Position numbers and translations under genes: made by a program. From Gammaproteobacteria bacterium (GTDB taxonomy: Bacteria; Pseudomonadota; Gammaproteobacteria; SZUA-229): DNA of 34,773 bases. The stretch is taken from assembly GCA_029882215.1 (NCBI GenBank), contig JAOULC010000032.1:1-34773 (forward strand). Reading direction: 5' to 3'. Positions 23,990-31,892 of this stretch are shown here, piece by piece (within the stretch, counting starts at the first letter, position 1; the number at the start of each line of letters is the position of its first letter). The notes beneath the pieces were generated by a model, which was not told the DNA's origin, searched no databases, and saw only the letters and a program-made list of their open reading frames with translations.

Positions 23990-24029
23990 TTGATAAATAT
24001 CATTGTTTGCATTAGCGACTTTTTATATT
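23990..24029 (+). promoter_or_regulatory. FNR/ANR-dependent class II promoter of ccoNOQP
   Basis: TTGAT-AAAT-ATCAT at 23990-24003 matches 9 of 10 consensus bases. TATATT at 24024-24029 is a good -10, giving a start near 24036 and a box centre at about -40. Low-oxygen induction of the cbb3 operon by FNR/ANR is well established in proteobacteria. Confidence 0.75.
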
Positions 24030-26150: not shown

Positions 26151-26360
26151 ATGGATATGGCAGATTTCAGATCATTTTATACAGTACTGCTGCTGATTAT
26201 ATTTGTCGGCATCTGGGCCTGGGCATGGAGTCGAAACAATAAGTCGAAATTTAGTAATGCGGCTAACTCGCTATTCGATCAAAAAGAAGAGCAAATCCAT
26301 GCATCATCCCTGCAACAAGAAGGTGCTGATAATAAACAGGGCGCGGAGAATAAATCATGA
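26151..26360 (+). CDS. ccoQ: cbb3 oxidase small subunit CcoQ
   Basis: A 69-residue protein with one membrane span (about 10-25, LLLIIFVGIWAWAW) followed by SRNNKSKF and a polar tail, the normal CcoQ layout. CcoQ stabilises the complex. GGAG lies nine bases upstream, and its stop overlaps the ccoP start (ATGA). Confidence 0.92.
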   Translation: MDMADFRSFYTVLLLIIFVGIWAWAWSRNNKSKFSNAANSLFDQKEEQIHASSLQQEGADNKQGAENKS

Positions 26361-27275: not shown

Positions 27276-27335
27276 TGAGCACAAGTTAATAAAATACATT
27301 CCCCCCTTTTTACTAAGATGCTATATGGAGATATC

Positions 27336-27590
27336 ATGCCTGGAAAAAATAATAGCGTTCCGAAAGTGCAGCGGTTTGTGGCTATCCTTTGGCCATCGTT
27401 TGTGGTGTCAGGAATTGCAACTGTCCTGTTTTTTACCGCGTTCGATCCGGATGAAGTGATAGGTTGTGTTGGTGGCTGGGATATCAGCCGTATGGGTTAT
27501 TATTCAGTTGGTTTCTTTTTGTTCTGGCTGCTGACATCACTCAATAGTGTATTGACCTGTTATTTTTTGAAGCCCTGTAGTAAGTCGTAG
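27336..27590 (+). CDS. Small two-span membrane protein in the cco cluster
   Basis: The ATG at 27336 has a clear GGAG six bases upstream, giving 84 residues; an in-frame ATG at 27318 has no such site. Two membrane spans are evident (about 17-40 and 55-77), separated by a periplasm-sized loop with a cysteine (GCVGGWD). Residue pattern P-S-F near the first span and FFLFWLLTSLNS in the second are striking. I know similar short proteins in proteobacterial cbb3 neighbourhoods but not by a named function. The place between ccoP and ccoG suggests a part in oxidase assembly or regulation. Confidence 0.75.
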   Translation: MPGKNNSVPKVQRFVAILWPSFVVSGIATVLFFTAFDPDEVIGCVGGWDISRMGYYSVGFFLFWLLTSLNSVLTCYFLKPCSKS

Positions 27591-29975: not shown

Positions 29976-30731
29976 TTACAACAGATGAATTGCCCTCGTT
30001 TTGCACTGTTCACGTTGTCGCTGATTGACGAACTTACTCAGCAGATTGCTATCGATTAACTGAATACCTGTAATTTCGGCACCTATCTGAATAAAGCGAT
30101 AAGGCCGGTTAAATTGTTGTTTGCTACGTACGGTTAGCTGGCAGTCAACGGTCTGTTTGTTTTCAAGCTCTATTCTGCAGTCTTTTATAACGCTGCCTTT
30201 CTTAAGTGAGAGGCTGTTGTTGCCCTGAATATTAATGCGTATGCCTTGCAATGAAATATCCTTTACGATGCCTGTTAATCGCGGATGATAATCTGTGTGC
30301 AATTTTGCTGAAAGAAGCTTGCCCGGTTCCAGTGCTAATCTGTAGCTGTTTCTTCGCTGTCTACAGTTAACAGAAGAAGGGTATGACAATAAAAGAGCGG
30401 GTGAATTCTGGTATTCGGTTGTTTTAATCACTTCTGCAGAGAAGGAAGTGACTTCTCCGTTTTCATGTAACTCACAATTCAGCACAGATTTCCCCATACT
30501 GGCAATGTCAGTATGGGGAAATAATTCATCCATGATCAGTATGTTGTTTAATCGACTGTTTGAAAGAATAATGCTCTGAAATAGCTGAGGGTGATCATCT
30601 ACTTTTATAAGCAGCCGGCTCTTGTTCTTTTGTAATTTATCAAGCGTGCCGGATGCAAAATCATGTACAGAAGGTTCGGTTGGCTCGCAAGTGGCATTAT
30701 GAATGAATATGTCTGCTATTTTCTTTAGCAT
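29976..30731 (-). CDS. YcgR-like PilZ domain protein
   Basis: With the ATG at 30731 the product has 251 residues. An N-terminal YcgR-type domain (about 20-120) is followed by a PilZ domain with both c-di-GMP binding motifs: RQRRNSYR at about 124-131 and DISLQG at about 158-163. YcgR proteins bind c-di-GMP and slow the flagellar motor. A GTG ten codons upstream (30761) is less likely as start. Together with the GGDEF-EAL protein this suggests c-di-GMP control of motility or attachment. Confidence 0.85.
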   Translation of the reverse strand: MLKKIADIFIHNATCEPTEPSVHDFASGTLDKLQKNKSRLLIKVDDHPQLFQSIILSNSRLNNILIMDELFPHTDIASMGKSVLNCELHENGEVTSFSAEVIKTTEYQNSPALLLSYPSSVNCRQRRNSYRLALEPGKLLSAKLHTDYHPRLTGIVKDISLQGIRINIQGNNSLSLKKGSVIKDCRIELENKQTVDCQLTVRSKQQFNRPYRFIQIGAEITGIQLIDSNLLSKFVNQRQREQCKTRAIHLL

Positions 30732-30919
30732 AGTTATCACTATAGTGGTCGGGTAACACACAATATAGCGGTAGAAAGTTAAAAATCTTTAGCAACGAGT
30801 AAATAGTCTGGGAAATTAATATCAGTCTTTTGTTGTTTATAGTTTATGCGGAAAAGTGAACGAGAAACTATCAGCTACAATAGTAAATATCAATCAATAC
30901 CATGTAAACAATAAGGTTA

Positions 30920-30961
30920 TTGATTTGTGTCAAGTTAATGGTGGTTTGCCGGGGATAAAAT
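30920..30961 (+). promoter_or_regulatory. FNR/ANR-type class II promoter of a 34-residue peptide gene
   Basis: TTGAT-TTGT-GTCAA at 30920-30933 matches 9 of 10 FNR bases; TAAAAT at 30956-30961 is a fair -10. The start would be near 30968, placing the box at -41.5, and leaving a 23-nt leader with a strong ribosome binding site. The geometry equals that of the hemN and ccoN promoters. Confidence 0.6.
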
Positions 30962-30990
30962 TTATTCCTATTATCAAGAGGAGTATTGGT

Positions 30991-31095
30991 ATGGAAATGA
31001 GTGATCTAAATACAGTAAAGAATCTAGGTCTCACGGCCGCAGTGTTTGTAGGTATTACAGTGGTACTCATCGTGATTGCAAATTTGGTAGGTTAG
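30991..31095 (+). CDS. 34-residue single-span membrane peptide
   Basis: The ATG at 30991 stands eight bases after AAGAGGAG (30975-30982), one of the best ribosome binding sites in the window. A short N-terminal segment (MEMSDLNTVKNLG) leads into one membrane span (about 15-33) rich in V, I, A and T. A longer reading frame from 30856 exists, but its first codons lie upstream of the predicted promoter. The gene has its own FNR-type promoter and a strong terminator 14 nt after the stop, so it is a complete one-gene unit. By analogy with CcoQ and CcoM, small peptides of cbb3 oxidases, it may join a respiratory complex; that is inference. Confidence 0.75.
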   Translation: MEMSDLNTVKNLGLTAAVFVGITVVLIVIANLVG

Positions 31096-31108
31096 ATTTA
31101 TTTTCAGC

Positions 31109-31137
31109 AAAAAAAACCGGGTTGCCCCGGTTTTTTT
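31109..31137. terminator. Bidirectional terminator after the 34-residue gene
   Basis: AAAAACCGGG pairs with CCCGGTTTTTTT (stem CCGGG 31117-31121 with CCCGG 31126-31130, extended by A-T pairs). Five bases separate it from the stop of the convergent PilZ-like gene at 31142, so it can serve both genes. Confidence 0.9.
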
Positions 31138-31141
31138 AGTT

Positions 31142-31522
31142 TTATTTAATGTTCTTTAGCAGTGTTTTCCAGTTTTCAAGATCGGTAGGGGTGCCCGACC
31201 TGTTTTTTAACTGAATGCCGATAGTATGCGCTACACCTGAACCAGGCTTGCATGAGTTAATGTCGCCGGTAACAAAAAATTTCTGCCTGCTGTCTTTAAG
31301 CGAAATACTCAAGTCTAGTACGCTTTTTACTGTCAAAGGCTGCTCAGAGCTAATTTGAATGGCTGATTTGGAAAGATCTTGTAAAGAGCACGAGAATGTT
31401 TTACCTAATGCTTTAGGGTCGTCGGAAGAAAAAAGTATTTTAACCTGAAATGTATCATCAGCCAGGAACCTTGCGTCTGCTCCTGATGGCTGATGGTCTG
31501 TAAGCTGGCTTTGTATTTCCAT
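31142..31522 (-). CDS. PilZ-like domain protein
   Basis: The ATG at 31522 has ACAGGA upstream and gives 126 residues. The pattern FQVKILFSSDDPKALGKTFSC, then LQDLSKSAIQISSE, then LDLSISLKDSRQKFFVTGDI resembles a PilZ beta-barrel, with DLSKSAIQI standing where DxSxxG would be. The glycine of that motif and the RxxxR motif are absent, so it probably does not bind c-di-GMP in the usual way. A 16-codon longer form starting at 31570 is possible. Confidence 0.6.
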   Translation of the reverse strand: MEIQSQLTDHQPSGADARFLADDTFQVKILFSSDDPKALGKTFSCSLQDLSKSAIQISSEQPLTVKSVLDLSISLKDSRQKFFVTGDINSCKPGSGVAHTIGIQLKNRSGTPTDLENWKTLLKNIK

Positions 31523-31892
31523 TATTGAATCCTGTTTATTGTTTGTAACTTTTATTAATAGGCTGATCAATAATGTAGCCCGTCATGGGCAGAAAAATTG
31601 TGAGTCAGGCTTGTTTTAACAAAATAGTAACTTTCGCTGACCGCTTGTCAGGTTTTTCTTTAACATGGGGCTTAGTGGCGTATCTGCGTCGTAAGTAACT
31701 CAGAGATATCGCAAAGATACAGTCAAATTTAAGATTTTATTGTCCGTGTCTGGCATAAATTTCAGGAGAGGATAATCAAACAATAACCGAACTGGTGCAG
31801 AATAGTTTTAGAGGGCTTTGTTGTGAGCACGGAGACGGCATAACGGGCTTGATTGCTTGTCGTCGTGATTATTGAGGGGGTGTATACTTCTG
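31523..31892. other. Gene-free gap
   Basis: No gene is supported in this 370-nt stretch. A short hairpin (GCCC 31578-31581 with GGGC 31587-31590) is the only structure I see. A GGAGAGGA near 31764-31771 looks like a ribosome binding site but no start codon follows at a suitable distance. Confidence 0.4.

Follow-up and report, generated by a model that had tools for sequence, protein, structure and literature searches.

A conserved 34-residue membrane peptide of Gammaproteobacteria with a predicted FNR promoter and a cytochrome c5 anchor-like sequence

We analyzed a window of 34,773 nucleotides of gammaproteobacterial DNA (the whole stretch under study), in which the 34-codon open reading frame at positions 30991–31095, judged by comparison with its relatives, is a genuine conserved gene encoding a one-span membrane peptide. 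Transcription of this gene from a conserved class II FNR promoter is strongly supported by the comparative data, and the peptide gene should therefore be switched on as oxygen falls. Unexpectedly, the nearest relative found for the peptide is the helix that anchors membrane-bound cytochrome c5 by its N-terminus, with a similarity that goes beyond amino acid composition. We tentatively propose (with a probability of about 0.4) that the peptide is a low-oxygen accessory helix of a putative partner, the cbb3 oxidase or a bc1-cbb3 assembly, to which it would dock in a manner similar to the c5 anchor.

Structure and conservation of the peptide gene

The gene content of the window named in our analysis includes hemN, ccoN, ccoO, ccoQ, ccoP, ccoG, and ccoH, where ccoO and ccoP were identified through their translations and ccoQ (26151–26360) encodes a normal CcoQ protein. 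The interval between ccoP and ccoG contains a 90-aa frame (27318–27590) without a match in Pfam or NCBIfam; a similar frame is present in another fetched locus (L166). The start codon of the peptide gene (ATG at 30991) is located approximately 1.4 kb past the end of ccoH (29574), as given in the original prediction, and two PilZ-domain genes flank the peptide gene (29976–30761 and 31142–31570). PilZ-domain genes adjoin the peptide gene within its own genus, and small PilZ-like genes on either side of it were observed in Ectothiorhodospiraceae-like MAGs (loci L063, L082, L097, L106, L130, L140, and L147; one was checked with Pfam).

The peptide gene unit, which is encoded on the forward strand, comprises the FNR box TTGATTTGTGTCAA (30920–30933) with one mismatch to TTGATN4ATCAA, the −10 element TAAAAT (30956–30961) at the class II FNR spacing of 22 nt after the box, the ribosome binding site GAGGAG (30978–30983) as read from the sequence, the peptide frame (30991–31095) that ends with the stop codon at 31093–31095, and an intrinsic terminator (31110–31137; one found vs. 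0.1 expected in shuffled sequences). Thus, all elements that the original prediction had combined into a single unit, from box to terminator, are in place. The encoded 34-aa peptide, MEMSDLNTVKNLGLTAAVFVGITVVLIVIANLVG, is a single helix with its N-terminus predicted to be inside; the AlphaFold2 model has a helix at residues 3–33 with a mean pLDDT of 95. A purine-rich ribosome binding site upstream of the start is visible in most relatives of the gene, and in both same-genus relatives the gene is followed by a GC-rich stem and then a T-rich run.

A search with the single sequence identified the peptide in two of three same-genus relatives at 53–59% identity, and the family was extended by a series of profiles built from four, 15, and finally 31 sequences. 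Conservation of the peptide, on which the original prediction had made its reading depend, is borne out at two taxonomic levels: relatives are encoded in 16 of 369 genomes of the class sample, all at E ≤ 1.6e-7 and with the same 16 genomes recovered by the 15- and 31-sequence profiles (the next match below them is at 5e-3 or 5e-4), and in 17 of 54 genomes of the family (profile, E ≤ 1e-4). Two further genomes with weak scores in the 15-sequence profile search, G280 (0.08) and G375 (0.018), were accepted as carriers because of their FNR boxes and genus; they are counted among the 18 class-sample carriers and the 33 carriers overall, outside the 16. In addition, the genome contigs were scanned for the combination of box, spacing, and first codons, which gave 88 stretches. 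Profile scoring of these stretches revealed nine strong matches, all of 34 aa and all from gammaproteobacterial MAGs, including two Ectothiorhodospiraceae, as well as two weaker matches (L144 and L126) and one ended by a contig edge (L115); the rest were chance-like. A search of plasmids gave no match to the peptide.

The peptide is under purifying selection, as judged from the aligned genes, with amino acids conserved and silent sites near saturation: the pN/pS ratio is 0.37 in its own genus and 0.21–0.44 in four other groups. One Asp residue is invariant in all 31 aligned members, and the length of the peptide is nearly constant among relatives. Two loci (L020 and L021) have perfect FNR boxes, yet carry ATA and ATT, respectively, at the expected position of the start codon; these loci, which may be decayed or misassembled, are included in the FNR box, −10, and pN/pS tallies.

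Predicted FNR-dependent promoter and gene neighbourhoods

The window contains seven FNR box matches with at most one mismatch (2.65 expected), and a single box is weak evidence alone; it is the recurrence among relatives that takes the box of the peptide gene far beyond chance. The comparison covers 30 relatives that were found without use of the box, with the finds of the box scan left out and with three carriers (G415, G015, and G016) outside the set, as no locus was fetched for them. Within 130 bp of the peptide gene, 22 of these relatives carry a box with one mismatch or none (0.37 expected under the Markov null), at a distance to the start codon of 56–72 bp and once of 84 bp. A usable box, i.e., one with up to two mismatches, is present in 24 relatives, and 23 of them have a TAnnnT element 21–24 nt downstream of it (2.2 expected). 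Conservation of the promoter and of the peptide strongly supports the earlier claims of FNR control, of a stand-alone unit, and of a one-span product. No recognizable FNR box was found within 130 bp of the gene in six of the 30 relatives. Genomes of this kind had been predicted to lack Fnr, and this prediction failed: an Fnr protein at E ≤ 1e-20 is encoded in all six of them and in 31 of the 33 carriers overall, while 28 of the 33, the own genome among them, have a match to NF008365 (Fnr) over its cut-off. The ccoN promoter in the window consists of the box TTGATAAATATCAT (23990–24003) and TATATT 20 nt later. The equality of promoter geometry between ccoN and the peptide gene proposed in the original prediction is therefore approximate; the exact spacings are 20 and 22 nt, respectively, and they coincide at 20 nt if GATAAA is read as the −10 element of the peptide promoter.

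The neighbourhood of the peptide gene varies between genomes. Proximity to ccoH is restricted to its own genus, outside which a conserved linkage to the cco genes was rejected by neighbourhood comparison; thus, the closeness to ccoH, to which the original prediction had appealed, fails as an argument for a respiratory role. In two distant relatives, the peptide gene is directly preceded by fnr (L144, 2561–3301; L126, 3033–5741); the fnr gene of L126 was read as a single frame with a DUF1631 protein. In three genera of the family (g12, g13, and g8; loci L168–L178), the peptide gene is located directly upstream of slyD. According to the slyD passages of a study of the Anr regulon in Pseudomonas (PMC6588701), an Anr box precedes slyD in all five species studied and belongs to the core regulon; these passages describe no peptide. 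Because the peptide gene precedes slyD in three genera, we suggest that the Anr box before Pseudomonas slyD may serve a hidden, unannotated peptide.

Known small subunits and the cytochrome c5 anchor

The peptide family is absent from the public family databases searched: Pfam, NCBIfam, PHROGs, and PDB contain no match above noise or curated cut-off. The best of the weak matches obtained with the 31 members are at 0.0015–0.0063 and involve one or two members each; those to PF02038, NF040912, YoaI (NF041475; one member, 0.0035), and DUF7186 (two members, 0.0015) were taken as membrane-helix noise. We found no title or abstract in the open-licence literature searched that describes this peptide. 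Two small subunits of cbb3 oxidases were compared with it directly. CcoM of the Pseudomonas stutzeri enzyme (PDB 5djq, chain N), described in the relevant passages of two papers as a one-span cbb3 subunit of about 36 aa (PMC10433244; PMC8267372), resembles the peptide in its small size and single span; however, it has a basic C-terminal tail that the peptide does not have. The two sequences are unrelated (1.4 bits, with 107 of 500 shuffles equally good), so that identity with CcoM was rejected, and the search of PDB with the peptide profile gave no match, CcoM included. The CcoM gene is located apart from the cco operon; a search for the Pseudomonas CcoM locus in plasmids and viral contigs found nothing. 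CcoQ/FixQ is likewise a small one-span cbb3 subunit similar to the peptide in size and topology, but differs in being operon-encoded and in having a basic region after the span. Identity with CcoQ was also rejected, as CcoQ scores 1.7 bits against the peptide profile; Pfam FixQ gives no match for the window peptide and matches one of the 31 family members at E 0.039.

A different relationship emerged from the sub-threshold matches of the 31-sequence profile, since 10 of 17 places lie in the anchor at the N-terminus of membrane-bound c5 cytochromes, encoded by a gene that we take to be CycB-like. Alignment of 15 c5 anchors from carrier genomes with the peptide family by hhalign gave P 3.9e-9 without gaps over 34 columns, from M to M. 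These anchors were collected with a whole-c5 query (L184), which contains the anchor and was itself a find of the peptide profile. The score was reached in none of 150 shuffles of the membrane columns and once in 100 shuffles of the N-terminal columns. N-terminal-helix proteins of the fetched loci served as a control, with 20 clusters that had at least two members and could be scored; the c5 cluster reached 38.3 and the runner-up 16.5. This control is weak, as the majority of the clusters consist of two sequences. Of five c5 anchors scored singly, three obtained 22–25 bits and one 5.6 bits; the anchor from the own genome (−1.4 bits) does not match the peptide profile. Common to the c5 anchor and the peptide are the predicted orientation, an Asp close to the N-terminus, and, where the helix ends, an Ala followed by a polar residue. 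Cytochrome c5 differs by its CxxCH haem domain, whereas the peptide frames end after the helix. Furthermore, the peptide gene has its own FNR promoter, whereas none of 20 c5 genes has an FNR box with one mismatch or fewer in the 200 bp searched. An apparent GTG start was observed for 18 of 20 membrane-bound c5 genes (L058, L060, and L179–L210). With 34 residues, shared descent and a shared binding constraint are inseparable, and either may account for the similarity.

Matches to c5 at E ≤ 1e-6 were identified in 22 of the 33 peptide carriers; four of the 11 carriers without such a match (G403, G014, G157, and G271) are at least 97% complete. Cytochrome c5 is a chain in the PDB entries 8smr and 8snh, the former of which also contains a CcoN-like chain. 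This c5 chain, presumably from P. aeruginosa, was matched from residue 16 only, without a matching anchor helix; we take both entries to represent the bc1-cbb3 supercomplex.

Putative respiratory partner and proposed role

In the class sample, ccoN over cut-off is present in 16 of 18 carriers vs. 173 of 351 other genomes (P = 0.001, kinship ignored). Within the family the respective fractions are 13 of 17 and 28 of 37 (P = 1, no association), and many ccoN-bearing relatives do not have the peptide. Among all 33 carriers, 27 have ccoN over cut-off, two have fragments, and in four genomes with a completeness of 77–94% (G037, G015, G367, and G415) ccoN is absent or weak. The own genome encodes a second, more distant ccoN-type gene (G000:C66:38273-39673), and second types of this kind, with lower scores, are frequent across the class sample. 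Two non-cbb3 complexes, bd (cydA) and bc1 (cytochrome c1), were included in the comparison. Cytochrome c1 was detected in 26 of 33 carriers and in 15 of 37 other genomes, the latter having been picked largely for their absence from the ccoN list, which makes this comparison uninformative.

The respiratory link of the peptide is argued from its FNR promoter and from its similarity to the c5 anchor. On these grounds, the suggestion of the original prediction that the peptide is a small subunit of, or regulates, a respiratory complex used at low oxygen is still our best guess, although two possible supports for it, a linkage to the cco genes beyond the genus and a within-family association with ccoN, are absent. 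Under low oxygen, FNR would turn on the monocistronic peptide gene. The N-terminus of the product, with the invariant Asp and Lys/Arg, would be located in the cytoplasm, and the helix would run to near the periplasmic side, where a conserved Ala-Asn marks its end, in the same orientation as the c5 anchor. The peptide would then pack against a respiratory complex used at low oxygen, with the cbb3 oxidase or a bc1-cbb3 assembly as the likeliest candidates, at a site like that of the c5 anchor, and would aid assembly, stability, or carrier docking. In this respect it would act similarly to CcoM without being CcoM. A bolder version, which we regard as rather unlikely, makes the peptide a relative of the c5 anchor without haem, a free anchor produced only at low oxygen that would fill or complete the anchor site of the bc1-cbb3 assembly; FNR would thereby control carrier docking on the high-affinity oxidase.

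Another reading that we consider a real possibility is that the peptide serves a different FNR-controlled membrane complex, such as one for denitrification or a formate- or NADH-linked one, or that it is a general low-oxygen binder of multiple proteins. The variable gene context, the four carriers with absent or weak ccoN, and the missing tie to ccoN within the family are consistent with this reading; the likeness to c5 anchors, however, is specific and hence points to the cytochrome c branch. The same likeness could also mean that the peptide regulates c5 or mimics its anchor as a decoy, so that competition for one site would alter the choice of carrier that delivers electrons to the oxidase when oxygen is low. 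The missing FNR boxes of the c5 genes fit this idea, since c5 and the peptide would then differ in their response to oxygen, but it is unlikely in view of the one third of carriers without a c5 match, the four nearly complete genomes among them.

The remaining alternatives concern the nature of the gene product. The predicted transcript is short, has a promoter and a terminator to itself, and folds with a z-score of −2.4, which is reminiscent of FnrS-type regulatory RNAs induced by FNR; in that case the peptide would be incidental. The retained amino acids against nearly saturated silent sites, the nearly constant length, and a search of Rfam that gave no family at cut-off for the transcript, FnrS type included, make this very improbable. 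In size and topology the peptide would also fit a small cytochrome bd subunit of the CydX/CydH type, and CydH/YnhF of Escherichia coli cytochrome bd-I (PDB 6rko, chain H) resembles it in being a one-span protein of 29 aa with a short charged N-terminus. However, CydH has no sequence similarity to the peptide (1.1 bits), which led us to reject their identity, and unlike in the E. coli bd-I setting, the partner oxidase is absent from the peptide carriers of the family: cydA was found in three of 54 family genomes and in none of the 17 carriers. We thus rejected a bd subunit, a reading contradicted for this bacterial family and hardly credible. Equally hard to credit is translation of a longer 79-aa frame from GTG at 30856, which the original prediction had named as the competing product. 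This frame is open, but the FNR promoter is located inside it, downstream of the GTG, and the corresponding stop-to-stop frames in two same-genus relatives have 39 and 54 aa, so that the extension is not conserved.

Very small subunits that annotation had overlooked are still being discovered in respiratory complexes. For the peptide family described here, which is missing from the libraries searched, the comparative evidence is strong, the oxygen switch is clear, and there is a specific hint at the partner. Other puzzling FNR or Anr boxes, the Pseudomonas box upstream of slyD among them, may serve further unannotated peptides. If docking follows the mode of the c5 anchor, the peptide would represent a new way of tuning electron delivery to an oxidase active at very low oxygen.
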